From Bacteroidota bacterium (GTDB taxonomy: Bacteria > Bacteroidota > Bacteroidia > Chitinophagales > Chitinophagaceae): DNA of 57,514 nt. Below are positions 2,006-42,007 of this stretch, piece after piece; the first letter of the stretch is position 1, and every line of letters begins with the position of its first letter. The translations under genes and the position numbers were made by a program. The DNA lies in the NCBI GenBank assembly GCA_024640225.1, contig JAHEFK010000012.1, positions 1 through 57,514 on the forward strand, written 5' to 3'. The notes under the pieces are model-generated. The model worked only from the letters and a program-made list of their open reading frames with translations. It was not told the origin of the DNA and ran no database searches.

Positions 2006-5000
2006 CTGTGTAATCACTGCTGCTAATTCGTGGCGTAAGGTGATAGTAGCTGATTTAAAAGTAACGCTATTCCATGCATTACCAAAAACCATATTATTAG
2101 ATCCGCCATAAACATATCCTGCTACTGGTCCGTTATAATCAACCACTACTGGATAATCCATGGCACCACTTCCTCCAACTACAGATCCTCCAACATTGGT
2201 TCCGGTTATAGTCCAACCGTTGCCAGCGAAGAAACCACCACTGAATGGGAAAAATATCGTCGCATTAATTTTTACGCCAGAAACGGTTAATCCATATCCG
2301 CTAGGAATTGGATCAGTAAAATTAAATGTGTAAGATCCATTAGAAGAAACAAATTGATTAACATTACCTGTTGAAACAACCGAACTATCAATATTAGGAA
2401 ACTTACATCCTTTAGCATCGGTAATGGTGCATTTTACTTTACCAGCCCCTAAATTAGAAGCTGTATTAGTAGTGCTTGAAGAACCACCCCATACATAAGT
2501 ATAAGGAGCAGTACCACCACTTACGGTAACTGTTGCCGAACCATTTGTAAGACCATAACAAGAAACATTGTTGCTTGTAATAGAAGCTGTTGGATTTGCG
2601 TTTACAGAAATTGTTTTAGTTTGTGTAGTCGTACATCCACTGTTGGTTACAGCATAACTAATGATAGCTGTTCCAGCACTTACACCAGTTACTACGCCCG
2701 CATTAACAGTAGCAACACTGGTATTAGAACTAGACCAAGTACCACCTGTAGTAGTAGAAGCCAAAGTAATAGTAGCATTTTTACATACATCAGCAACACC
2801 TGTAATAGCTGCCACTGTAGGAACAGCGTTAACAGTTCCTGCTAGATTTACGGTTACAGATGTAGCACCGGTTGAAGCAATAGTTATTGCGCCGGTTGAA
2901 GTACCAACAGCTGCAGTGCTTGATAATCTCACATATACGGTTGTGGTAGCTACCGAATTATTGATAGGGGTAATGCTAAGCGTAGGGCTGTAAGTAATAT
3001 TATTTGTTGAATATTCAAAACCAGTTACGGCAGAAAGTGTCAAATTATTTGTAAGATTAGTACCTCCAACAGTGATTGTTTGAGGGGTAGACGCCGAACC
3101 AGCACAAGTAGAAAAACTTGAAAGGCTAGCTGTAGCTGTTACCGTTGGGTTGTCACAAATTTTATTTCTTCCTATTACTATATTATTAAAGTCAAAAGAA
3201 ACAAAATCAGGTTTACCATCATTGTCCAAATCTATTCCAAATGAATTTCCATAAGATGACAAACCAGTTATATAATTAGATGCGAAGCTAGATCCGGCAA
3301 TTGTGGATGCGACACCCATCGTATTATTATTAGTTAAAATCATTGCAGCAGAGCCACCATTAAAATCAGAAGTAATAATATCCGGTTTAGCGTCACCGTT
3401 GAAATCAGCAACATCTATGCTCCACGTCCAATTAGAAGATGAAGAATTAAACCCAGGCGTAGAAATAGCAGCGCTAAAACTAGATGCTGAAAAGGAGCCT
3501 GAAGTATAATTATTTTGAAAAATATCACCATTGGTTACCCAAGCTTGTCCGGAAAGAATATCTCTGTTACCGTCTAAATTAATATCTTCTGCGTAGACCG
3601 CATGAGATCCTTCAGAAGCAGCTGTAGATTTAGATAAATTTACAGGTAAATCAAAAGTTGGAACAGATGAAGTAGTTGTGTTAATGTAAATAACTGCGGT
3701 TGTATAGTTTAAATATTGATATCTTCCAACAATTATATCTGGTTTATTGTCATTATTGACATCTTTGATATCCAAATCTCTAATTGAATTTGTACTGCTT
3801 ATTACTGTTGGTGTTGATGAAAATGTAACTGCTGTTCCCGGAAGCGAACTAGTATTTGCGTAAACGTTAATAGACGATCCTGACCATGCAGATGTAATAA
3901 TATCTGTCTTTCCATCTCCATTTACATCACCTAATTTAACAATAGTAGATCCATTAATAGTAATATCTTGTTTAGTTAAAAATGAAATATTTCCTGAGGT
4001 GCTATTATTAATTAAAATTGACATGGTGGTTGAACCATTGGTTACAATTAAATCTAACAAACCATCGGAATTGACATCGGCATATTCAATATCTTTTGGA
4101 GAACTTGTTGTTGCAACATTAAGAGTTTGAGTAAAATTTGAAAGCGACAAAGAACCAGATGTACTTTGGTTTCTAAATACTTTCACTAAACTATTAGTAT
4201 TATCAACTTTAGCTAAATCTAGCTTTCCATCTGCATCAAAGTCAGCAACCACCCCATTGTGTCTAACATTGCTCCAAGAAGCAGAACTAACAGACGAAGG
4301 TGTTGTTGCAGAGGTTATTGAAAAGGTATTAAAACTAGAAGATGTTACATTTGCTGGTGTACACAATGAAGTATAGGTATAGAAAAATGATTTGCTTGAA
4401 GCTGTTATTTTACCAGAAATCGTATTAGTAACTGTAATTGGAGCTACACGAGCACCATAAGGAACCGTTACTACAATTTGTGAAGCTGTAACTGAAACAA
4501 TGGTAGCTCTAACACCTCCAAAATAAACCACGTTATTTGCAGCATTTGCATCAAAACCAGAACCCGTAATGGTAACTTGTGTACCTACTGCTCCTGTGGT
4601 TGGTGAAAAACTTAATACACTTGGTGCTGGCAAAACCTGACCAGACAACATAGAGTTTAGATCCGAAGATACCGGACTTGAAGAAGTGGTAACTGTAGCA
4701 CCCGCCGTATAATTTGACTCTTGACCTTGAGCAACAATTATATAAGCATCTCCAGTATAAGTTGTATAAGTATTATTGGTCGCAGGAATAAAGTTAACTG
4801 CCTTAGTTGTAGAACCACTTGCATCTTGACGAGATACCGTTCCATAAATTTGCACCAATGTTCCTGAAGCATTAATATAAGATAACAATCCATTTACATT
4901 GTTTCCACTACCAAAATTAGGATCTGCAGGATTGTTTGAAGTAAAGCTAAATCCTGAGCCAGTAATTAATGAAATACTTGTATAGCTTTGGGTGGTAATA

Positions 5001-5119
5001 GTATACGTGTTTCCACTAGCCTGATACAAATTGTTAAAATAAATGGTAGCAGCATTTGAGTTATCGAAACTTAATAGTGCACAAATAAGGATAAGAATAC
5101 TTTTTAAAGTAGCTTTCAT
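1..5119 (-). CDS. Giant secreted repeat adhesin (IPT/TIG, FG-GAP, SprB, PKD-like repeats), C-terminus beyond window
   Basis: Open without a stop for 1706 codons from an ATG at 5117-5119. The frame at the window edge still spells the repeat motif, so there is no frameshift. It starts with a signal peptide (hydrophobic stretch ending near SNA, residue 23). Domains in order: an unassigned region with T/S-rich beta sequence; an IPT/TIG domain at about 165-250; FG-GAP/VCBS-like repeats with D-x-D/N-x-D-G calcium loops at about 285-635; a beta-sandwich region; a BIG_2-like Ig domain at about 770-830; one SprB-type repeat at about 840-905 (GGTAPYTYVW and a DAKGC end); an unassigned domain at about 910-1025; then at least eight PKD-like repeats. 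This is a typical T9SS-exported surface or gliding-type adhesin; the expected C-terminal sorting domain lies outside the window. The exact ligand is unknown. Upstream gene lutB is divergent. Confidence 0.85.
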   Translation of the reverse strand, partial: MKATLKSILILICALLSFDNSNAATIYFNNLYQASGNTYTITTQSYTSISLITGSGFSFTSNNPADPNFGSGNNVNGLLSYINASGTLVQIYGTVSRQDASGSTTKAVNFIPATNNTYTTYTGDAYIIVAQGQESNYTAGATVTTSSSPVSSDLNSMLSGQVLPAPSVLSFSPTTGAVGTQVTITGSGFDANAANNVVYFGGVRATIVSVTASQIVVTVPYGARVAPITVTNTISGKITASSKSFFYTYTSLCTPANVTSSSFNTFSITSATTPSSVSSASWSNVRHNGVVADFDADGKLDLAKVDNTNSLVKVFRNQSTSGSLSLSNFTQTLNVATTSSPKDIEYADVNSDGLLDLIVTNGSTTMSILINNSTSGNISFLTKQDITINGSTIVKLGDVNGDGKTDIITSAWSGSSINVYANTSSLPGTAVTFSSTPTVISSTNSIRDLDIKDVNNDNKPDIIVGRYQYLNYTTAVIYINTTTSSVPTFDLPVNLSKSTAASEGSHAVYAEDINLDGNRDILSGQAWVTNGDIFQNNYTSGSFSASSFSAAISTPGFNSSSSNWTWSIDVADFNGDAKPDIITSDFNGGSAAMILTNNNTMGVASTIAGSSFASNYITGLSSYGNSFGIDLDNDGKPDFVSFDFNNIVIGRNKICDNPTVTATASLSSFSTCAGSASTPQTITVGGTNLTNNLTLSAVTGFEYSTNNITYSPTLSITPINNSVATTTVYVRLSSTAAVGTSTGAITIASTGATSVTVNLAGTVNAVPTVAAITGVADVCKNATITLASTTTGGTWSSSNTSVATVNAGVVTGVSAGTAIISYAVTNSGCTTTQTKTISVNANPTASITSNNVSCYGLTNGSATVTVSGGTAPYTYVWGGSSSTTNTASNLGAGKVKCTITDAKGCKFPNIDSSVVSTGNVNQFVSSNGSYTFNFTDPIPSGYGLTVSGVKINATIFFPFSGGFFAGNGWTITGTNVGGSVVGGSGAMDYPVVVDYNGPVAGYVYGGSNNMVFGNAWNSVTFKSATITLRHELAAVITQPAQIQLTSATTIPAICNNGTVNYTPVVTPAGTTYSWIRPTISGISTASSTGTGNISETLTNTTNNPITVPYTFSLLNGGCLVSQIVNTVVNPTPVITSTLTPSAVATGSVFNYLVSGSTGATFSWSRATVTGISNASATGTGNISETLVNTTNAPVTVSYVYTITIGSCTNTQTVSVVVNPTPVFSSSLTPPAICSGTNFVYAPSSATTGTTYSWSRAAVAGISNIAAMGIGTANENLVNTTVNPINVTYVYTLTANGVSNTQSVVVTVNPTPSLNSTLTPASICNNGTFAYTPSSATTGASFSWSRAAVSGISNTAGTGTGAISESLTNTTANTLNVIYAVTASANGCNGSAQNVTVPVQPTPTLSTSLTATAGSGNPFNYIPNSATTNITAAGWSRAVVAGISNAAASSASGIINETLINTTAAPVVVSYVYTLAIGSCINTQTVNVTVNPRPTLTSGLTSTAINNTPFTYTPTSATTGTTYSWSRAVVAGISNAAATGTGSINETLINTTANPINVTYVITLTANGVTNIQNVVVTVYPTPTLSSSLTPSAVCSGATFNYTPTSATTGTTYSWNRNAVAGIGNAAATGTGAISEALVNTTLIPVTVNYDITLSANGVNNTQTVSVVINPLPVLTSGLTPNALCNVSPFFYIPSSGTPGTTYAWSR

Positions 5120-5273
5120 GCGGTTTTAATTTATTGGTCGGGTACGAAATTATATAATTTTTTTTAAATACCTAGCAATTTTTAAACTTTTTATAACAAT
5201 TGGTCTTTATTTTAAAACAAAACCACAAAATAATTATCCTACATTGATTTGGAAATAATTTATCAATTCTTAG

Positions 5274-29894: not shown

Positions 29895-30152
29895 TTATTT
29901 ACACTTACATAAATTGCATTCTGATTCGGTAGCAAATCCCTTTTGCGAACAGCCGCTATAGTTCTTTAATTCGCATACGCCTTTGTTTTTATTATAAAAC
30001 CATCGGCTAAAATAGGCAGCACAAAGTTCGTTGCTTGGCACTACATCATTGCAGGCAGCAATGCTGGGTGTGCAGTTTGTGCTACATTGACTAGCTCCTA
30101 CAATTATTAAGAAGAGTATAGTGGTAAATAAAATTACTTTTGAGTTAGTCAT
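29895..30152 (-). CDS. Small exported protein with Kunitz/BPTI-type domain
   Basis: 85 residues from the ATG at 30150-30152 (an in-frame TTG seven codons upstream overlaps the preceding gene). Hydrophobic export signal to about residue 20. The mature part carries a Kunitz pattern: C34, C44, C60, C68, C79 and C82 or C84, with CAAYFSRWFYN after C44 and NYSGC at C68. The C44-C60 (15 residues) and C60-C68 (7) spacings equal those of BPTI; the C68-C79 loop is two residues shorter. Such domains inhibit serine proteases in animals. The P1 position would be near L43-C44-A45, so specificity cannot be predicted. Last gene after DUF1569. Confidence 0.75.
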   Translation of the reverse strand: MTNSKVILFTTILFLIIVGASQCSTNCTPSIAACNDVVPSNELCAAYFSRWFYNKNKGVCELKNYSGCSQKGFATESECNLCKCK

Positions 30153-30162
30153 AAATAAAAAT

Positions 30163-30615
30163 TTAAACCCCAAATTGAGATAGATGATGATCTAAGTGTT
30201 TATAAAACATATTATTCCATTCTTCTTTATTAAGCACACCAAAAGAGTGCGATGCCTTACCGTCAAAATAAGCAGCACCAAGAACTTGTGTTTTTTTGAT
30301 ATAATCAATTAATCTATTACGCTCTTCTTCAAAGTTTTTTGCATCTTGAATTATAAAAGCAGGTGCTGTTTTTAAACTATGTTTATAGGGAGTATCGTTA
30401 ACAACCGTTTTCTTCACAATTAATTTTAGAATTAATTGTAAAAGAATTGAGGGTTTTGCATGCTTATTTTCAAAAGCCATTTCATAGGTAACATTGCAAT
30501 GCGCCAACATTTGATCTACACTCATTTTGCCCCATTTTGGTTGAGTGTTTGCATGTAATTGCTGAATGCGTTCTATAAGTTTATTCACCACTGCAATGTC
30601 AAAAACATTATTCAT
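30163..30615 (-). CDS. DUF1569 protein (DinB-like fold)
   Basis: 150 residues, helical. It has the DUF1569 features MSVDQMLAHCNVTYEMAFE and a C-terminal KHLDHHLSQFG whose histidines with the early AHC His would form a DinB-type metal site. DinB-like proteins include thiol-dependent transferases; the reaction here is unknown. A TAACTTTG -7 box lies 22 bases upstream. The Kunitz gene begins 10 bases after its stop. Confidence 0.82.
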   Translation of the reverse strand: MNNVFDIAVVNKLIERIQQLHANTQPKWGKMSVDQMLAHCNVTYEMAFENKHAKPSILLQLILKLIVKKTVVNDTPYKHSLKTAPAFIIQDAKNFEEERNRLIDYIKKTQVLGAAYFDGKASHSFGVLNKEEWNNMFYKHLDHHLSQFGV

Positions 30616-31344: not shown

Positions 31345-32073
31345 TTATTTATAGACAACCGTGATAACTTGGAATAAGGCGGTAATGATTATAACCCCCA
31401 AAACAATATAGCGAAAGATACGTTCTGATGTTTTTAGAAGAATAAGTTTTCCAATATAACTTCCTAAAATACTGATGCTAATTAAGAAAGGAATTAAAAA
31501 TAAATACTCTTTTCTAAAATAGCCATTGCCAACATAGATAGCTGCTCTGCTGCTGTCTACTCCTAAATCTATAAGTGCAGAAGTGGCTAGAAAAATTTCC
31601 TTGGGTAATTGAAATGCCGCTAATGTGATACCTCTAATAGCTCCACCAGTTCCTACTAAGCCGGCTAAAAATCCAGATACTGTTCCGCCTATATATAAAT
31701 TAGTATTGTTTTGTTGAATAGGTTTATTAAAATTGATTATTAAGTATACCGATAATAAAACGATGGCCATATTCATAAATAGGCTTAATTTTTCGGTAGG
31801 TATGAGCGTGGTTAACCAAGCGCCGATAAGTACAAAAACAATGGCGGGTATGCCTAGTTTTAAAGCAATATCTTTATGAATACCTTTTCTGAATAAAACT
31901 ATTTTAGATAGATTACTAAACACATGAAAGACGGCTGTTATACCCAGTACAGTTTTGAATTCAAAAAATAAGGAGGCTATCGGAACAAATAATATACTAG
32001 ATCCAAATCCAGAAATGGTGCCAATTATTTCTGACAGCAAAGCAAGGCTTAAAAAGAGGGCATATTTATCCAT
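31345..32073 (-). CDS. TSUP-family membrane transporter (TauE/SafE-like)
   Basis: 242 residues with about eight hydrophobic helices. Internal repeat marks: GTISGFGSSILFVP near the N-terminus and GLVGTGGAIRGITLAAF in the second half, the latter being the family GTGGG-like loop. TSUP proteins export sulfite, sulfoacetate or related anions. It stands alone, without sulfur genes next to it, so the substrate is open. Confidence 0.88.
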   Translation of the reverse strand: MDKYALFLSLALLSEIIGTISGFGSSILFVPIASLFFEFKTVLGITAVFHVFSNLSKIVLFRKGIHKDIALKLGIPAIVFVLIGAWLTTLIPTEKLSLFMNMAIVLLSVYLIINFNKPIQQNNTNLYIGGTVSGFLAGLVGTGGAIRGITLAAFQLPKEIFLATSALIDLGVDSSRAAIYVGNGYFRKEYLFLIPFLISISILGSYIGKLILLKTSERIFRYIVLGVIIITALFQVITVVYK

Positions 32074-33006: not shown

Positions 33007-33489
33007 TTAAATCCGAATTAATTGCTTTGCTCTTAATGTATCTAAGCTAAGTGCTTCTCCATCATTTAAATTTTTATAAGCAGTAACTTCACACAAAAAC
33101 AATTGGTGATCAGCAGCCGGATAGCGATTTATTATCCTCAATTCCATTACCGCTAGTGCATCTTTTAATATTTTGTAACCTCTCCAATCCGTTGTAAGTC
33201 CACGTTTTTCTAAACGAGCCAGTTTATCAATTTTTTTACCACTCTTTTGTCCTAATAAGGGTATCAATCGATATTGTGTTTCGGATAATAATTGTAATAC
33301 CATACCATCAGATTGATTTATAAGTTCTAATGTTTTAGTATGCTCGTAAATGGCCACTATAAATTGTTTGGGTTGCATGCTTACAGCTGTAGCATATGTA
33401 CAAATATTCATATTATACGAAGTACCCTGCGCACTACTTACGCTGTATACTGTCGCATTAATTCGATTCCATGGTTTTTTTCTAGTCAT
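33007..33489 (-). CDS. Flavin reductase family protein (small)
   Basis: 160 residues, split-barrel FMN-binding fold: NATVYSVSSAQGTSYNMNICTYATAVSMQPKQFIVAIY follows the family pattern across the FMN-binding strands (residues 10-47). It reduces flavin with NAD(P)H or binds FMN. It is the last gene of the photolyase-like operon, 52 bases after DUF2256. Confidence 0.85.
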   Translation of the reverse strand: MTRKKPWNRINATVYSVSSAQGTSYNMNICTYATAVSMQPKQFIVAIYEHTKTLELINQSDGMVLQLLSETQYRLIPLLGQKSGKKIDKLARLEKRGLTTDWRGYKILKDALAVMELRIINRYPAADHQLFLCEVTAYKNLNDGEALSLDTLRAKQLIRI

Positions 33490-33541
33490 ATTTGTAACCG
33501 CTTTTCTTATGTATTAATAAGCTTATTTTATAATCCAAATT

Positions 33542-33712
33542 TTATTCCGGCATACCCTTGCTTTTTTGCATACTACATTTCTGGCTACAATATTTTACAT
33601 CCTTCCAAACCTTTTCCCATTTTTTTCGCCAAGTGAAAGGGCGTGAACATACACAGCAAATTTTACTAGGAAGTTCGGATTTACGAATGTTTTTATTTTT
33701 ATGGTTTTGCAT
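33542..33712 (-). CDS. DUF2256 zinc-ribbon-like mini-protein
   Basis: 56 residues. The core CCVCSRPFTWRKKWEKVW and VKYCSQKC matches the DUF2256 family, with two Cys pairs (C19/C20-C22 and C42-C46) fitting a small zinc site. DUF2256 genes are often found next to cryptochrome/photolyase genes. Here the ATG lies inside the last 14 bases of the upstream flavin reductase gene, which is itself joined to a photolyase-like gene. Its role is unknown; it is easily missed because of its size. Confidence 0.85.
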   Translation of the reverse strand: MQNHKNKNIRKSELPSKICCVCSRPFTWRKKWEKVWKDVKYCSQKCSMQKSKGMPE

Positions 33713-34307
33713 AAGCTAATCGACCTAAGGGAGATGGAACAAAATAGGCATCTAGCCCTTGACTAATTACTACTTGTTCTTCTGATAAGGATACAAATCC
33801 GTCTTTTTCCACTAGTTGTTCATCTATATGTATTTGTTGTACACTGCCAACAATTAGTATCGTACCGTTAATAGCTATTGGAATAATTTCTTCCAATTGC
33901 ATGGCTATGCTTACAACAGCATTTTTCACCATAGGCGCAGTACAAGATGGAAGATACGCTGGTTCAAAACCTACCGCTTCAAACTCCGAAATCTCTTTGT
34001 CGTAACGAGCAGATGTTTGGTGCGCCCTTTTATAATCTGCTGCCCTAACATAATTGAGGGTGTATGCTTTTGTGCTGATAATATTTTGTAAGGTATCTCT
34101 TTGCACACTATCAGGCCTGTTGATTAATCCATATAAAGCAGGATGCGCTCCTAGGTGTATCAGTGAATTAAAGATGGCAAGATTATGATGACCCTCCGAA
34201 GATTGAGTGCCAACCAGCACTGCTTGTCTGAAGCCCGCTAATGAATTTATTAATGTAGTTCTATAGCGCTGTTCTAATTGCTCGATTTTATTTTTATCAA
34301 TGATCAT
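33699..34307 (-). CDS. Flavin reductase family protein (large)
   Basis: 202 residues of the flavin reductase/flavoredoxin-like split barrel, with SLAGFRQAVLVGTQSSEGHHNLAIFNSLIHLGAHPALYGLINRP spread over residues 23-66 as the FMN-binding part and an LPSCTAPMVKNAVVSI strand. It overlaps the photolyase-like gene by 11 bases at its start and DUF2256 by 14 at its end, so the three are translationally coupled. Likely partner: supplies or handles reduced flavin for the photolyase-like protein (inference). Confidence 0.85.
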   Translation of the reverse strand: MIIDKNKIEQLEQRYRTTLINSLAGFRQAVLVGTQSSEGHHNLAIFNSLIHLGAHPALYGLINRPDSVQRDTLQNIISTKAYTLNYVRAADYKRAHQTSARYDKEISEFEAVGFEPAYLPSCTAPMVKNAVVSIAMQLEEIIPIAINGTILIVGSVQQIHIDEQLVEKDGFVSLSEEQVVISQGLDAYFVPSPLGRLAYAKP

Positions 34308-35406
34308 GGTAGGTTACTTTAAGTTTGTTTTCAATATTTTTCCAATAAGCAAAAAAGGAAGGGTAATACCCACTTGTGTCCGCTATTATCCAATCTCTTG
34401 CTTCTTCGTTTCCTTTATAACCAATATTCAACGGATGTTCTTTATAATAAACAGTTGTTAGTTTATGCGTTTCCATTAAAGACTCGAAGGAGCCAATATA
34501 AATTTGTAGGTTCTTAATGTTCTTACTTAGCGCTAGCATAAAATCCATACATAATTTACTAATTGGGTACTTAGAGAAAAATGCAGGTTCTATTAGTAAA
34601 ATTCTATTGCCAGGCTCATCTTGATGCCATAAGGGATCGAGATTATAATAATTATAGAGGAAGCTTGGTAAGTCGCTTTGTACTATAATCGTTGATTGTT
34701 GGGGTAAGACTGTTTCCAAATTAAACAGTTCGGTGTTGAGTAAAACACTAGGCGTGTTTAATTGTTCTAGCGCTTCATAACTTGTATCTAAAAAAGTATG
34801 TTGCTGTTGGGTGTGTGTGTATTTGTTTATGTTCTCTTGATTTACATAATATTTTTTCTGACTGTTTGCTCCTGCTACCCATTGCCAACTACAAGCATTG
34901 CTGGCCCAATCTCCATCTAGCAAATGATAATACATCCATTGTGCAGGATGCAACCAGTGCGACTTTGCTATATTACAAGCTAGTGATGCGGTATACATCC
35001 TGCAATGATTGTGCATATAGCCGGTGGTATATAAATCATGTATGGCTTTATCAATTCCCTCAATCCCGCTTGTGCCTTTTATAATGCTAGATGCAAGTGC
35101 ATGGTTGGTGACGGGTGTCTGTTGTTGTTTTATTTCTTGTTGTAGGTCTTTTACTTGGGCTACGCGTTGAAAATAATCGCGCCAACAAAGTTCTTTTACA
35201 AAACTAGTCATTTGCTCTAGGGTATAGCCTTTTTTTAAAAGATGAACGAGTACTTGTCGGGTGCTCATTACGCCCCTAGATATATAAGGAGATAAATAAC
35301 TTACTGCTCCGTCTATATAATTTCTAGTTGTACCATATGCTATTGGATCAATTTGGTCTAGCTTTTGTACAATAGCATTATAATTGGTTTCAAATTGTAT
35401 TGGCAT
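34297..35406 (-). CDS. Photolyase/cryptochrome-like FAD-binding protein with FAD domain at the N-terminus
   Basis: 369 residues. Residues about 25-205 form the photolyase FAD-binding domain: YLSPYISRGVMSTRQVL, FVKELCWRDYFQRV, TGYMHNHCRMYTA, then LDGDWASNACSWQWVAGANS. The usual N-terminal antenna (alpha/beta) domain is absent. About 160 residues follow instead, with alternating strands and helices (TIIVQSDLPSF, NRILLIEPAFF, NLQIYIGSFESL), which looks like a Rossmann-type region placed after the FAD domain. It could be a DNA-repair enzyme, a light sensor or another flavoprotein. First gene of an operon with two flavin reductases and DUF2256. Confidence 0.82.
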   Translation of the reverse strand: MPIQFETNYNAIVQKLDQIDPIAYGTTRNYIDGAVSYLSPYISRGVMSTRQVLVHLLKKGYTLEQMTSFVKELCWRDYFQRVAQVKDLQQEIKQQQTPVTNHALASSIIKGTSGIEGIDKAIHDLYTTGYMHNHCRMYTASLACNIAKSHWLHPAQWMYYHLLDGDWASNACSWQWVAGANSQKKYYVNQENINKYTHTQQQHTFLDTSYEALEQLNTPSVLLNTELFNLETVLPQQSTIIVQSDLPSFLYNYYNLDPLWHQDEPGNRILLIEPAFFSKYPISKLCMDFMLALSKNIKNLQIYIGSFESLMETHKLTTVYYKEHPLNIGYKGNEEARDWIIADTSGYYPSFFAYWKNIENKLKVTYHDH

Positions 35407-36223: not shown

Positions 36224-39200
36224 TTAATAATTACAAGCTCTTTCTATACACTTCCATCCGCTGCCGTTATACAATTGGAAGCAACCATTGCCAGTGCCGT
36301 TTGCGTCGGTAACATAGATAAGCATTCCTTCTACTAAATTTGTACCCGTGATGGCATTGCGTTGTGCCAGTGTCATACGGGTAATGACAAAACCCTTATT
36401 GGAAGATTCTAAAACTAAAGCGGCATTTGGCACATTTTCGGGCCATCCTGCTTGTTTGCTTTGTGTAGTAAAACCTACATTTCCAAAAGTACTAGGTGTA
36501 CCCGTTATTGGATCTTTTACACAATATGGACATTTAGTAACTATGACTTCATTAGACGAAACACGATTGGCGCTTCCACAAGCCGATTCTGGATCTACCG
36601 TCATTGTAACTTGGTTAGAAATACTTGTATCGGTATTTTTAGTAAGCACTTTAAATGTAATTACATTATTGAAGGCGCTTCCTGGAATAGTCATACCAGT
36701 GATGTACAATACATTTTTATCAGTAGCGTAATTATTTACGGTTCCTCCAAATGGATTGCTTAAAGAGTTGGCTACCAATTCTTGAGCTCCATCTAATCGT
36801 TCTAAGAATTCTACATTGCTAATAGCGCTTGTAGAAGGGTTGTTTACAGTTATTGTATACGTAAGCTCTGTGCCATCTCCATTAGCGGTTTGTGAAAAAC
36901 ATTTGTTCACCGATTTTGTAATCGTAGGTTTGTTGGCAATGGTGCCGGCTGTATAATTAACTACGATATCCTGAAAATCATCGATGCCACTTTCGTCATC
37001 ACTTTGATATGGATTTGGATTATTGGTGCCACCAACTACCGTATATTTAAAATCGGTAGCGTAAGATGAAGTGGTATTGCTACTTGTTTTCACTTTTGCA
37101 TAGATATACGAGTTGCCACTTGGAACGGTTAAATTAGTTAAGCTAAAACTTTGACCGTTATAGGTTGGCGTTTCGGTACCTAATCCTACATAACTATTAG
37201 CTACATATTGTAAACCTGCCGGTAAGGTATTGCTTATGTTTATGGTTTTAGCAACACAATTCCAGTTTTTGATATTAAGTTTAATAAGGGCTTCCTCGCA
37301 AGTAGGTAAATTGTTATTGGCAAAAGAAGCAATTATATACACATTATCGGTATTCGGCTCAGGTTTGTTGTCGCACAATAACTTTACATCACTTAAATAT
37401 AAAAACCCTATTGTTTTTCTTATAGGCGCTCGGTTAACCGACCATTCTACAACAAAGCTGTCTACCGATTTTTCGAATTCAACATTCATAGTGCTATAAT
37501 CCCAACTATCGTAATAAACTTTTGTCCCGGTCGCTGTTGCGGTGCTATCGTTTATCGTAAATCGTCTATAGAGTGCATTGTTTGCAGCTGTATTATTATA
37601 AGCAAAAAGTAATTTTGGAAGTACTTCTTGTGAGCCACAATAGCCCTTAACACTTACAACATTTGCTTGTCCAGAAAGTTTGGTAATGCCAGAAATTTGG
37701 AAACTAGGTTTTGCTGCTATTCCATTACCATTAGCATCTTTAATTTTTACGGAGTATGTTACTTTTCCACTTGCACCATTGAGGTTATCGAATCTAGAAA
37801 GCTCGGTCCAGTTGCCATTCCATCTTGGGAAATTTGAAGATAGCCATTCTATACTTTGTCCGCCACTACTAGGATAGACAAGGGTAGCATTTGCTTTTAG
37901 GCTTCCGCTAGCTGGATTACCAATAGTAATATTGCTTAATTGATTTGCGTTTCTTGCGCTTGCACCACCTAAAAACCATTGGTAGTTCATATCAAACATA
38001 CCGTTGCCACCTACACAGCTAGTACATTTTTTTTCTAAGTTGGCTACTACCTTAGAGGATATAGCACACTCATTACTTGTAGGATCATAAAACAACTCTA
38101 CGTAATTCATAGCAAATTCATCGATTTGATTTATTTGTGTTTGGAAGGTAATGGTATGGGTGCCGCTTGGTATATTCAAATTGGTGATGAAAAAGTTACT
38201 TTCACCATTTTGGGGTGTTGGGAATACACTGCCCGACAAACCAGGTGATAAGGTTACGTTACTATTCACTAATTGACCAAGATTTAAAAAGGAATACAAT
38301 TGTAAATTGCTCATCGTTGCACCGCTATTGTTGTTGATGGTAATTGTATAGGTAACCAATCCACATGCATCTTGTGTTTTGTTGGATGTAAAGGCTACTA
38401 AAGGCATAATAGGCGCTACACTTGGCTTAAAGGTTATAGCCGTAGGCTGTAGCCCCCAATTTGCGCTCAAGTTGTCGCTTAAAAGAGAGGTACCCGTTCC
38501 ACCACTTGCAACGGTTACGTTGTAGGTCGATTGGGTATTAAAAGTAGTAATGGAATTAATGGTACTACTTGGTTTTACATTTACATATAAATTGGTTTCT
38601 CCTGATGGAATATTAAAATTAGATAAACTAAAATTCTGTCCTCCATAAGTAGGCGTCACTGCAGAATCTGATTCGAATGTATTCGCTATATATTCAATAC
38701 CACTTGGTAAGTTATTAGTAATATTGATTGTTCTGCCATTGCAATTACGATTGATGATATTCAATTTCATAATTGCCGGATTACAAGAACTTAGCGTATC
38801 TTCTTCAAATGATTGTTTGATAAAAACATTGTCTTTATTAGGTTCTACAGGAGATGAACATTCTACTTTCATGTCGCCAACAGTAAGCCAAAAGAAAGTA
38901 TAATAAACCGGCGATCGCTCTACGGTGTATTCAATTTCTATTCGCTCTACAGGTTTACTAAAGTTTACTTTTATGGTGGAGTAATAACTCAAGCCCATAT
39001 AGTATTTTTTACCCAATGCTGTGTTGGCATTAATGGAATATGAATTGAACATTTTTGCCCAATTGGTAACTTTAGGTGTTATGGTAGGTATCACTAAGCC
39101 ATTACCACAATACCCTCTTACTATTACTTTGACTTTATTGCCAAACCATTCATTGATACCTGATAATTCGAAACTAACTTTACCGGCTTTATTAAGCTCC

Positions 39201-42007
39201 GTTTTATATAGCACTTTTGATGCAGTGCCGTTTGCATTTCCAACATGTGGCATCAATGCACTCGTACCGTAAGAAGTAGGATACCATGCGTTTACCCATT
39301 GATTAGAAGGCGTAGTATAGGTTACGGTATTTTTTGCTAGTAGTGTGTTGCTTTCTCCATCTACAGCATAAGTAAACCAACTGGTACTATCGTTTGCTTT
39401 TTTTAAAGCAGTATTCCAAGAAGCACCTTGTTTAATTACATATTTTCCACCCATACAAGTAGCGCAGGTTGGAGCGTTTACTTTACCAGCTATTGTAAAA
39501 TATTGTGTGGCATTATCTTTAAAGTCGACAAGAAAAACGGCTTTGCCGCCAACAAATGAATAGGCGGTAATAATTCCCGAGTTGCCATTAATGCCTGCAT
39601 TGTCGCCAAAGTATAAAACAATATCACTGTTGATACCATAACCACTTAAGTCTGCTTCTATCCATACCGGACCGCTTGCTCCTGTTTCTTGCACCCGCCA
39701 TTCTTTGGCTATTCTATACATGCCGTCGGATAATGCAGGGCAACTTACAGGGTTTAGCGCTGTTAGCGCTGTGGAAGCATTATCATTATCACCCAACATT
39801 ACAAACTGCCCATTATTTAAAGAGCTACGACTACCATCATAGTTATTGCTGGTAAAATTATTAGTGGTAGCAGCGGTAATGATAGCACCTGTATTTATTG
39901 ATTTAGAAACTTTTTGATTCAAACCACCATTCAAGTCTTTTGCAATACCAAATATATTATTGTGATAAGTGGCATTGTTGTATCCATTCCAAATAACTGC
40001 ACCACTCGAGTTGACGTAGTTAAACTGTCCTGATGTGGTACCGTCTTTTAAGGTGACTCCATATTTTATGGCTAAATAAGATTCTAGTCTGTAACGATCT
40101 GCATCAGACAAGTCGGTACCATAAACTACATTATCGCCATACAAATCATCTAATGCACCACTAGACCAATTATTATCCGAACCAATTCCATAATAGTCGG
40201 TAATTATCCAAGGAGCTAAATTGTTGGTAGTCACGGCACCATCCACCGAAATAAGTCGGGAATTAGAGGGGGTATTAGTCCAGGTGCCACCTACAATATT
40301 GGTCGTATTGGGCGTAATTACCCTAGGGTCGGATAAGGTAGATGCATATAAGGTCCAACCATTTGTGGTGCCTAAATTAGTAATATGGATACCGTTATAA
40401 TCCATGCTGGCATTCCATCCAAACTTACCATTTCTATTACTAGTAAGCACTTTGATACCTGCATATATAGAACCCGGATTGGAGGAGTGCGTAGTGGTAC
40501 TTCTCATGTAAATGGTATTGGCCCAAGTGCCTGTAAAACGAACGGTAGGGTTAAAGTTGACAAGATAATTGCTATTGGTTTTATTTAATTTAGGTATATA
40601 AGCCGGGCGCTGATTTTCTAAAATCATGGTACCTACACCAGAGCTTTCCCATGTGGTCACATCATCGTTGTCGCTTCCATTGATATTGCCGGCTACAAAC
40701 CAACCTAGCAAATTGTTGCTTACGCCACCCGGACCTGCAGCAGCATAACCAGCGAAGGTGAAATAGTCGCCATTATTTAAAGTTAGCTGTGCTGTATTAT
40801 AAGACACTCCATTGATGGTGACAGCACCTGTCATGGCAATAAATTCATCAGAAGTCGTAATTGTAGCATCTGTAGAACGAATTAGATGTAAATTTTCTAT
40901 ACCAGCCGGCATTGCCACGGTTACCACACCCACATTGCCGGTATTTTGCACTTTCCAAATGGCTGCAAATCGACTGTTGACCTCACCCCCAGGTGCCATA
41001 TAAGATAATGTAGTGCTTAATTGTTCACCCAAACCATTATTACCCACCACTACAAATTGATTATCGCTCAGCGTATTGGTATTGGCTTGATTGGTATTAT
41101 TTAAATTCGTTCCTAATCCTAATACTAAGCCACACTTACTAGCAACACTCGTACTTTGTTTTTGATATAAGGCCGATGCATCATCTCTTCCTATACCCAT
41201 AATATTGGTAGCATAACTAGCAACAGAATAGATGGTTGTTCCATTAGAAGAAAGATAATTGTGCGATAAGCTCACACCATACTTGATGGCTAAATAAGAA
41301 TTGATTTTTTGTGCTTCTATGGTACCCGATAAGTTCTGATTGTAAACAATGACTTCAGGTATATTTCCTTCATATTGTTCATTGCCTACTCCTGGTACTA
41401 GCAAGCCTTCGGTGCCCACTACAAATAAATTATCAGCAATTGCAGCGCCAGTATTAACAATGCTTGAATAGCTACCATTAAGTTGACCTTGTGTGCCACC
41501 GCTAGCATTCCAAAACATGTTAGGAATGTGCGTAGGAGAAGTATTGATGTCTGTACCAAATGTATTTGATAATCCATTCGTTCTCCAAATATTATAAACC
41601 AAACCAGCGGATTGTTGTGCTAAATTAGGGTTGTCATCGCCAAATCCATAAAGCGTTTGCCAGCCGGTAGTGCCATTGTTTTTGGCTAAACCAAAAATTG
41701 AACCGGCAGAAGATGTGCTTCCCATGATGCCAGCAGTGCTATAAAAATAGTTATTGCTTGCACCTGTAAAATTAAAAAAGGGATTGAAGTTAAAAATTGC
41801 CGTACCGGCATTCCAAGTAGGGCTAACGCCGCCACTATTAAGGTGCTTGCCATTACCACTTTGGTCTGGCCAACCTGTTGGCTGACTCGTATGTGCGTCT
41901 GCTTTATACCAAGCTTTTAAGCCGGTAGATACCCCTCCGGGGCTCTGTGCTATGGCAATATTAAATAGCAATAGCCATGCAGTTGAAAAAAGAAATAGTT
42001 GTTTCAT
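36224..42007 (-). CDS. Giant secreted adhesin with LamG-like and DUF11-like repeats
   Basis: 1927 residues. Signal peptide to about 20 (FNIAIAQ). Two N-terminal LamG/concanavalin-like blocks each end in SYLAIKYGV(S/T)L, followed by repeats of a cysteine-bearing module (CMGGKYVIKQGASW, CVGGNGMFDM). Two copies of a DUF11-type beta domain follow (DNVFIKQSFEEDTLSSC and DNVYIIASFANNNLPTC), then a third (NKPTITKSVNKC). No T9SS CTD; instead it ends in the ALVLESSNKGFVI ... LYNGSGWKC module also found in the next gene. Likely a cell-surface fibre or matrix protein; partners and ligands unknown. Confidence 0.82.
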   Translation of the reverse strand: MKQLFLFSTAWLLLFNIAIAQSPGGVSTGLKAWYKADAHTSQPTGWPDQSGNGKHLNSGGVSPTWNAGTAIFNFNPFFNFTGASNNYFYSTAGIMGSTSSAGSIFGLAKNNGTTGWQTLYGFGDDNPNLAQQSAGLVYNIWRTNGLSNTFGTDINTSPTHIPNMFWNASGGTQGQLNGSYSSIVNTGAAIADNLFVVGTEGLLVPGVGNEQYEGNIPEVIVYNQNLSGTIEAQKINSYLAIKYGVSLSHNYLSSNGTTIYSVASYATNIMGIGRDDASALYQKQSTSVASKCGLVLGLGTNLNNTNQANTNTLSDNQFVVVGNNGLGEQLSTTLSYMAPGGEVNSRFAAIWKVQNTGNVGVVTVAMPAGIENLHLIRSTDATITTSDEFIAMTGAVTINGVSYNTAQLTLNNGDYFTFAGYAAAGPGGVSNNLLGWFVAGNINGSDNDDVTTWESSGVGTMILENQRPAYIPKLNKTNSNYLVNFNPTVRFTGTWANTIYMRSTTTHSSNPGSIYAGIKVLTSNRNGKFGWNASMDYNGIHITNLGTTNGWTLYASTLSDPRVITPNTTNIVGGTWTNTPSNSRLISVDGAVTTNNLAPWIITDYYGIGSDNNWSSGALDDLYGDNVVYGTDLSDADRYRLESYLAIKYGVTLKDGTTSGQFNYVNSSGAVIWNGYNNATYHNNIFGIAKDLNGGLNQKVSKSINTGAIITAATTNNFTSNNYDGSRSSLNNGQFVMLGDNDNASTALTALNPVSCPALSDGMYRIAKEWRVQETGASGPVWIEADLSGYGINSDIVLYFGDNAGINGNSGIITAYSFVGGKAVFLVDFKDNATQYFTIAGKVNAPTCATCMGGKYVIKQGASWNTALKKANDSTSWFTYAVDGESNTLLAKNTVTYTTPSNQWVNAWYPTSYGTSALMPHVGNANGTASKVLYKTELNKAGKVSFELSGINEWFGNKVKVIVRGYCGNGLVIPTITPKVTNWAKMFNSYSINANTALGKKYYMGLSYYSTIKVNFSKPVERIEIEYTVERSPVYYTFFWLTVGDMKVECSSPVEPNKDNVFIKQSFEEDTLSSCNPAIMKLNIINRNCNGRTINITNNLPSGIEYIANTFESDSAVTPTYGGQNFSLSNFNIPSGETNLYVNVKPSSTINSITTFNTQSTYNVTVASGGTGTSLLSDNLSANWGLQPTAITFKPSVAPIMPLVAFTSNKTQDACGLVTYTITINNNSGATMSNLQLYSFLNLGQLVNSNVTLSPGLSGSVFPTPQNGESNFFITNLNIPSGTHTITFQTQINQIDEFAMNYVELFYDPTSNECAISSKVVANLEKKCTSCVGGNGMFDMNYQWFLGGASARNANQLSNITIGNPASGSLKANATLVYPSSGGQSIEWLSSNFPRWNGNWTELSRFDNLNGASGKVTYSVKIKDANGNGIAAKPSFQISGITKLSGQANVVSVKGYCGSQEVLPKLLFAYNNTAANNALYRRFTINDSTATATGTKVYYDSWDYSTMNVEFEKSVDSFVVEWSVNRAPIRKTIGFLYLSDVKLLCDNKPEPNTDNVYIIASFANNNLPTCEEALIKLNIKNWNCVAKTINISNTLPAGLQYVANSYVGLGTETPTYNGQSFSLTNLTVPSGNSYIYAKVKTSSNTTSSYATDFKYTVVGGTNNPNPYQSDDESGIDDFQDIVVNYTAGTIANKPTITKSVNKCFSQTANGDGTELTYTITVNNPSTSAISNVEFLERLDGAQELVANSLSNPFGGTVNNYATDKNVLYITGMTIPGSAFNNVITFKVLTKNTDTSISNQVTMTVDPESACGSANRVSSNEVIVTKCPYCVKDPITGTPSTFGNVGFTTQSKQAGWPENVPNAALVLESSNKGFVITRMTLAQRNAITGTNLVEGMLIYVTDANGTGNGCFQLYNGSGWKCIERACNY

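Follow-up and report, generated by a model that had tools for sequence, protein, structure and literature searches.

A reversed-topology photolyase-like protein encoded with flavin reductases and DUF2256 in a Bacteroidota gene cluster

Photolyases of reversed topology, with a flavin adenine dinucleotide (FAD) domain at the N-terminus and a short domain at the C-terminus, form a published class known as NewPHL or short photolyase-like (Emmerich et al. 2020, Nucleic Acids Research; Xu et al. 2021, Molecular Biology and Evolution), to which Synechococcus Phr4-7 are also assigned. 'Short Photolyase-Likes' (SPL) are one of eight groups in PMC9178010, which cites Xu et al. (2021) for them. Phr4/Phr5 and Phr6 of marine Synechococcus/Cyanobium are described in PMC9426592 as reverse-order photolyases with iron-sulphur (Fe-S) cysteines, sometimes encoded by two genes, and members of the class from Dinoroseobacter and Methylobacterium are reported there to repair dimers in single-stranded DNA in a light-dependent manner. 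Photolyases in operons are the subject of only two earlier reports according to PMC9649867. The present study characterised four head-to-tail genes, cryC (a label used here), FR1, DUF2256 and FR2, placed in this order by open reading frame (ORF) calling on the minus strand (35406-33007) of a 57,514-nucleotide stretch of contig JAHEFK010000012.1 (assembly GCA_024640225.1, Bacteroidota, Chitinophagaceae); this whole stretch is referred to as the window.

The four genes are likely to form one unit for the light-driven repair of DNA damaged by ultraviolet (UV) light, in which a reversed-topology photolyase would be combined with a supply of reduced flavin. Blue light would excite the reduced FAD of cryC, from which an electron would pass to a pyrimidine dimer; by analogy with the characterised relatives, the substrate is probably a dimer in single-stranded DNA. 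The likeliest job of FR1, and here also of FR2, would be to supply reduced flavin or to keep the photolyase flavin reduced, and the genes would be read as a single transcript. The original prediction, which had suggested such a supply, is supported in part. Four computed observations underlie this proposal, namely the domain order of cryC, the fold of its FAD half, the retention of FAD- and lesion-site residues, and a conserved gene neighbourhood.

All four proteins exceed the curated Pfam cut-offs (FAD_binding_7, Flavin_Reduct, DUF2256 and Flavin_Reduct, in gene order), the gathering scores being 27 for PF01613 and 25 for DUF2256. The gene content and spacing given in the original prediction, with overlaps of 11 bases between cryC and FR1 and of 14 bases between FR1 and DUF2256 and a gap of 52 bases between DUF2256 and FR2, were reproduced exactly by ORF calling and Pfam. 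The clustering goes beyond chance, because two of the three Flavin_Reduct places and the sole DUF2256 match of the window genome (1.85 Mb, 43 contigs, 96.5% complete) fall within the unit and because the order recurs in relatives. PF03441 occurs at two places in this genome, one being cryC; the other is a 446-codon frame on contig 16, with its FAD domain towards the C-terminus (residues 211-388 of 436). The one DUF2805 gene of the genome lies outside the unit, and the genome gave no PF04244 (DPRP) match at an E-value (E) of 0.001 or below.

In cryC, PF03441 scores 79.8 bits at residues 69-194, and the rest of the protein has no Pfam family. The AlphaFold2 model has a mean predicted local distance difference test (pLDDT) of 95.2 and a predicted template modelling score of 0.92. 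Structural alignment with VIA-align laid the first ~200-225 residues on photolyase or cryptochrome FAD domains in 49 of the 50 best rows, as with 7ykn, whose residues 225-516 align with residues 1-224 (Z 15.8, root-mean-square deviation (rmsd) 3.1, 219 aligned). Helical models without kinship can reach Z 13-14 by this method, and the kinship of the FAD half rests, besides the structural score, on a clear sequence match to 1tez (E 8.9e-15). NCBIfam photolyase models align to cryC through their C-terminal FAD half, far under cut-off, and the DASH cryptochrome model TIGR02765 gives 70.8 bits against a cut-off of 317.05. The class I layout, PF00875 before PF03441, is not that of cryC, which has no PF00875 and whose FAD domain begins at residue 1, and PF04244 is absent among its Pfam matches up to E 1. 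With its FAD domain in front and an antenna-like domain behind, cryC is not a truncated photolyase. The original prediction of a 'photolyase-like FAD protein' is borne out for the FAD domain, and had overlooked both the second conserved domain (residues ~215-369) and the reversed order. The remaining structural row, sixth of the 50, is a Trypanosoma mitoribosome small-subunit assembly factor (PDB 7pub_Ff / 7pua_Ff), which matches the FAD half (Z 15.4) and also the C-terminal domain (Z 5.9) and gives the impression of a reused photolyase. Phage matches to cryC comprise ten records, covering 40-45% of the query and all inside residues 16-182.

Conservation was assessed in an alignment (A1) of the window cryC and 69 relatives, which takes in 70 of the 97 eligible proteins and no partial ones; residues are numbered as in Escherichia coli photolyase, and cryC equivalents were assigned by spacing. 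The equivalents of W277, D327, H340, N341, R344, W359, D372, D374, N378 and W382 are present in all 70 rows, and those of E274, M345 and W384 in 67, 67 and 69. By spacing, the third Trp of the E. coli electron chain corresponds to about residue 99, which is V in 50 rows, I in 11 rows and F in 2 rows; none of the 67 rows listed has Trp there.

Relatives of cryC were gathered by peptide patterns from the genome collection (n = 339), the best 80 being kept as loci, and neighbouring genes were identified by clustering together with Pfam on one representative per cluster. The resulting island consists of DUF2071 or SDR, DUF2805, cryC, FR1, a 500-amino-acid (aa) photolyase (PF00875 + PF03441), DUF2256 and DPRP, and is complete in few loci only. 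FR1 starts at most 100 bases from the cryC end in 31 of the 76 loci with room. Where 3.6 kb or more lies downstream (n = 56 loci), the genes found within 5 kb are DPRP (43 loci), DUF2256 (36), FR1 (29) and the 500-aa photolyase (23); DUF2805 lies upstream of cryC in 45/70 loci, and in 22 of the 37 loci with both DUF2256 and DPRP these two genes share four bases. The order cryC-FR1-DUF2256-FR2 recurs in locus L042, where cryC is cut by the contig end, with ~1.6 kb after FR2, while locus L034 (85% identity) has cryC-FR1-FR2 without DUF2256. A link of FR2 to the unit is seen only in these two nearest relatives and some others. An apparent cryC-FR1 fusion in another locus (L101, 3-1583) was rejected, as a frameshift near the end of cryC reads on into FR1.

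Across 198 evenly sampled genomes of the order (the window's own included), cryC was found in 34 genomes (among them the fragment G074, the two-piece G095 and G139, and the stop-containing G176, G119 and G075), DUF2256 in 91 (of 92, G131 being left out as below cut-off), DPRP in 81 and FR1 in 76; coordinates of split matches were merged. DUF2256 accompanies cryC in 33/34 genomes, against 58/164 without cryC; the corresponding figures are 32/34 and 49/164 for DPRP and 26/34 and 50/164 for FR1, with Fisher p values of 1e-6 to 6e-31, uncorrected for kinship. Counting genes no more than 300 bases apart on one contig, cryC adjoins FR1 in 12/26, DUF2256 in 6/33 and DPRP in 4/32 of the genomes with both, while FR1 and DUF2256 are paired in 19/66 and DUF2256 and DPRP in 24/75; the FR1-DUF2256 pair also occurs within this distance in 12/41 genomes without cryC. 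The C-terminal domain of cryC was found in 17 of 247 genomes of an even sample of the phylum. The neighbourhood, on whose conservation the original prediction had made itself depend, is conserved within the order as well as elsewhere in the Bacteroidota; the links thin out beyond the phylum.

FR1 is a distinct flavin reductase subfamily: its profile matches 76 genomes of the order at E ≤ 1.1e-38 (some partially: G092, G154, G029), out of 108 at E ≤ 1e-20, after which a gap extends to 7.4e-25 and weaker if the second part of a single split match is disregarded. Among solved structures, the nearest relative is PDB 3fge_A (E 1.1e-83, profile positions 1-201 of 208). The NCBIfam models nearest to FR2 are HpaC_Thermus and RutF, far below cut-off. 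Among gammaproteobacteria, three of 54 records with FR1 were viewed, and in that of Vibrio pelagius FR1 lies 77 bases after a photolyase gene.

DUF2256 carries a CxxC-x(17-20)-CxxxC pattern in all 50 aligned rows and in the window copy. The family is assigned to the TRASH clan of metal-binding domains in PMC4047054, and PMC11796252 notes its frequency. The original prediction held that DUF2256 often accompanies photolyase genes. This is supported by the genomes of the order, most sharply for DPRP, which 75/91 with DUF2256 also have, against 6/107 without it; the association is not universal, given that only three of the nine plasmid regions viewed (of 133 records, 2.5 kb each side) have a photolyase gene nearby, two adjoining it and one at ~0.7 kb, with six lacking it. 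DUF2256 is presumably a small zinc-finger-like accessory of photolyase loci, in which it may play some role. It directly follows a photolyase gene in Tritonibacter (L131, 973-2626), and in Acinetobacter (L129, 977-2656) it follows a 'cryptochrome/photolyase family' gene, with a TIGR03643 gene next on the other strand.

Several results weigh against the proposed unit. Promoter- and terminator-like sites at the four genes are at shuffle level and lend a transcription unit no support. FR1 is missing in 8/34 cryC genomes, and in two of the three gammaproteobacterial regions, both on Pseudoalteromonas plasmids, it stands next to SDR, and no photolyase is annotated within 5 kb. Moreover, the positions of E. 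coli R342 and W338 hold His and Tyr in 70/70 rows, and to judge from these residues substrate use may differ. HNH instead of HNR is also found in five of six alphaproteobacterial relatives (the sixth has HNW) and in three Deinococcus proteins (two by pattern, the third by eye), whereas the classical rows matched by pattern (n = 6) have Arg at that position (HNR in 4, SNR in 2).

The missing FR1 genes and the Pseudoalteromonas plasmids favour a reading in which the genes are together through joint light induction, as a co-regulated light/UV-stress island, and the reductases serve general flavin or oxidative-stress metabolism without passing electrons to the photolyase. This reading denies only the flavin-supply step, and we give it a considerable chance, somewhat short of even. 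It is also favoured by the presence in the island of DUF2805, DUF2071 and SDR (each tested on a single representative) and, at certain loci, of a TspO-like gene (by eye), and by Pseudomonas mendocina phrB, which PMC9758184 describes as light-induced and in one operon with an SDR and an FAD-dependent oxidoreductase. Against it stand the distinctness of the FR1 subfamily, its start close behind cryC and its abutment on DUF2256 at the frequencies given above, and its position after the photolyase of Vibrio pelagius. That FR1 serves photolyases is favoured because the subfamily is tied to them, and weakened because eight cryC genomes lack it.

A more specific form of the proposed flavin supply is conceivable, though we hold it to be doubtful: FR1 would be a dedicated reductase that keeps the FAD of cryC (and of DPRP, where present) reduced without light, and DUF2256 a zinc-finger adaptor or loading factor joining reductase, photolyase and damaged DNA. 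As the third Trp of the E. coli chain is missing, cryC would in that case depend on FR1.

The C-terminal half of cryC is a conserved domain, since the invariant residues of A1 reach W355 and the final ~150 residues are therefore conserved. Modelled alone (157 residues), it reaches a mean pLDDT of 88.4. The 15 best of 998 chains in VIA-align are photolyases or cryptochromes aligned from their first residues, the best being 9hnk (1-129, Z 7.0, rmsd 2.6, 95 aligned) and 8ijy (2-128, Z 6.9), and in three of the 15 the aligned range stays in the antenna domain (ends 128-135). This structural match is modest by itself, and relatives give stronger evidence. In a Deinococcus plasmid homologue (H3; L115), PF03441 at residues 102-218 is followed by PF00875 at 300-395 (E 7.2e-4, or 7e-5 with the C-half alone, both under the gathering score). 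Compared with seven classical N-terminal domains, the profile built from three Deinococcus C-domains scores E 4.3e-9 (133 columns), and none of 24 control families does better than E 0.071. When the Bacteroidota C-domain is set against 28 profiles, the top two places go to two of the three classical sets (E 0.0014 and 0.0065). The last domain of cryC is, as far as models and profiles indicate, probably a relocated antenna-type domain, an identity supported less firmly than the domain order and the fold of the FAD half.

Other comparisons speak against an antenna identity. Twelve of the 15 best rows overrun the antenna domain (ends 259-306; one rmsd 20.5), Z 7.0 is middling, and a universal stress protein follows in sixteenth place with Z 6.0. 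Foldseek with the C-domain returned nothing below E 0.001, with phosphopantetheine adenylyltransferases on top and no photolyase in the best 50 of 493. The third classical set ranks only seventh (E 0.077), with a control at 0.013, and the Bacteroidota and Deinococcus C-domains match each other weakly (E 0.0079 to 0.021). Searched against PDB sequences, the C-domain profile found only MsrB (E 1.5), the window C-domain matched no Pfam family, and hhalign with the Bacteroidota C-domain placed the first photolyase set at E 0.21 and DPRP at E 0.078. Among the relatives, phmmer with the Deinococcus C-half gave nothing significant in the PDB (a cryptochrome at E 1.3), the Deinococcus C-domains match DPRP N-terminal domains only at E 0.26, and alphaproteobacterial C-domains gave no signal against classical antenna domains (E 0.21, two controls better), while matching those of Deinococcus (E 8.1e-5 and 0.0011 in the two directions). 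The want of a significant PDB or Pfam sequence match, the adenylyltransferases heading the Foldseek results and the weak profile scores would all suit an unrelated alpha/beta domain. We nevertheless judge such a domain unlikely, given that photolyases and cryptochromes are the best structural rows, that the Deinococcus homologues have a recognisable antenna domain at the same place, and that two of the three classical sets come out best for the Bacteroidota domain.

By build, cryC is a Bacteroidota branch of the published reversed-topology class (NewPHL / short photolyase-like): Pfam, AlphaFold2 and structural alignment agree on an N-terminal FAD domain with a folded second domain behind it. 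In a 35-row FAD-domain tree with seven DPRP rows excluded, a branch with 100/98 support sets apart the 23 reversed-order domains, which come from Bacteroidota, Alphaproteobacteria and Deinococcus. When the DPRP rows are included (42 in all), their long branch (3.0 changes) lands inside the reversed-order set, and a single clade is not rejected (approximately unbiased test, p 0.451). One row, d_L131triton, first labelled DPRP, grouped with the 500-aa island photolyases and was kept among the classical rows. Like-built proteins found with the cryC sequence come from Ruegeria, Peteryoungia, Asticcacaulis, Novosphingobium and Niveispirillum; these alphaproteobacterial proteins presumably correspond to the published NewPHL. 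Identity to cryC is 27-32% for the alphaproteobacterial and 34-37% for the Deinococcus matches. None of the 70 Bacteroidota rows has a CxxC behind the FAD motifs (residues 180-262); the three Deinococcus proteins do have one.

Three Deinococcus plasmids (L115, L122, L123) encode reversed-domain photolyases with an Fe-S-type cysteine set. In L123 the protein is split between two overlapping genes (3896-4669 and 4666-5187); Deinococcus sp. QL22 encodes the halves separately, in genes with a four-base overlap. In Asticcacaulis, the start of the photolyase gene is overlapped by one with the annotation NAD(P)-binding protein or FAD-dependent oxidoreductase (L117, 1749-2693; L155, 2031-2975), which is another possible redox partner of the reversed-domain class.

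A cryptochrome-like blue-light sensor, with the adjoining flavin reductases resetting its flavin, would accord with the invariant His at the R342 position and with V, I or F in place of the third Trp. It is improbable, as the lesion-site equivalents E274, W277, N341, M345 and W384 are kept, Asn stands at the N378 position, the cryC model has no output domain, and the relatives reported in PMC9426592 are dimer photolyases. Equally hard to credit is a remnant that has lost DPRP and in which FR1 and DUF2256 are left-overs on their way out: the window genome is small and one of only two cryC genomes lacking a DPRP match (G169, at 77% completeness, being the other), but all four frames are open, at 96.5% completeness a DPRP gene may be unassembled, and L042 and L034 share the local form with no DPRP seen, which suggests, on short contigs, a stable arrangement without it.

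How cells keep the flavin of photolyases reduced, apart from light-driven photoreduction, is to our knowledge an open matter. A flavin reductase subfamily that recurs with more than one kind of photolyase provides named genes and cultured hosts in which the proposed flavin supply can be tested. DUF2256, a small protein noted for its frequency (PMC11796252), gains a clear partner in the DPRP photolyase. For photolyase evolution, the reversed domain order is already published; what is new is its Bacteroidota branch, along with a form from Deinococcus in which the last domain can still be identified as the antenna domain. A description of the FR1/DUF2256 gene set with a photolyase was not found in a limited search of the open-licence literature.

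The coordinates of the unit are collected in Table 1. Elsewhere on the minus strand of the window, a TauE/SafE-type transporter (PF01925, 104.6 bits; 31345-32073) lies downstream, with no link to the unit seen. Upstream, a 1927-aa surface-protein-like ORF (by eye; 36224-42007) is separated from the unit by a 179-aa ORF. A 92-aa ORF (29895-30173) looks secreted and has Kunitz-inhibitor-like cysteine spacing (by eye).

Table 1. Genes and domains of the four-gene unit in the window, with the evidence for each.
Feature	Coordinates	Strand	Length and evidence
cryC, reversed-domain photolyase-like	35406..34297	minus	369 aa; PF03441 and AlphaFold2 model
cryC FAD-binding half, ~residues 1-215	34762..35406	minus	structural alignment and conserved residues
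cryC C-terminal alpha/beta domain, residues 213-369, core ~244-338	34300..34770	minus	AlphaFold2, structural alignment, profile comparisons
FR1, flavin reductase of distinct ~203-aa subfamily	34307..33699	minus	202 aa; PF01613, 52 bits
DUF2256, zinc-finger-like	33712..33542	minus	56 aa; PF10013, 68.6 bits
FR2, second flavin reductase	33489..33007	minus	160 aa; PF01613, 72.6 bits

Among known systems, the closest to FR1 is PDB 3fge, a 'putative flavin reductase with split barrel domain', known here by its entry name alone. The DPRP / FeS-BCP prokaryotic (6-4) photolyases are island neighbours of cryC and have the FAD domain in common with it (FAD-half profile, E 4.1e-11), but show the classical order, their N-terminal domain being PF04244 (representative L070), a domain absent from cryC. 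Phr4/Phr5 and Phr6 share with cryC an FAD domain that comes first and a photolyase domain that comes last, and like Deinococcus QL22 they also occur in a two-gene form; four Fe-S cysteines are reported for them in PMC9426592, whereas the Bacteroidota rows have none. With NewPHL/SPL, cryC shares the N-terminal FAD domain and the short C-terminal domain; it differs from them in having no Fe-S cysteines and in its place within an operon-like cluster with FR1, DUF2256 and often DPRP.

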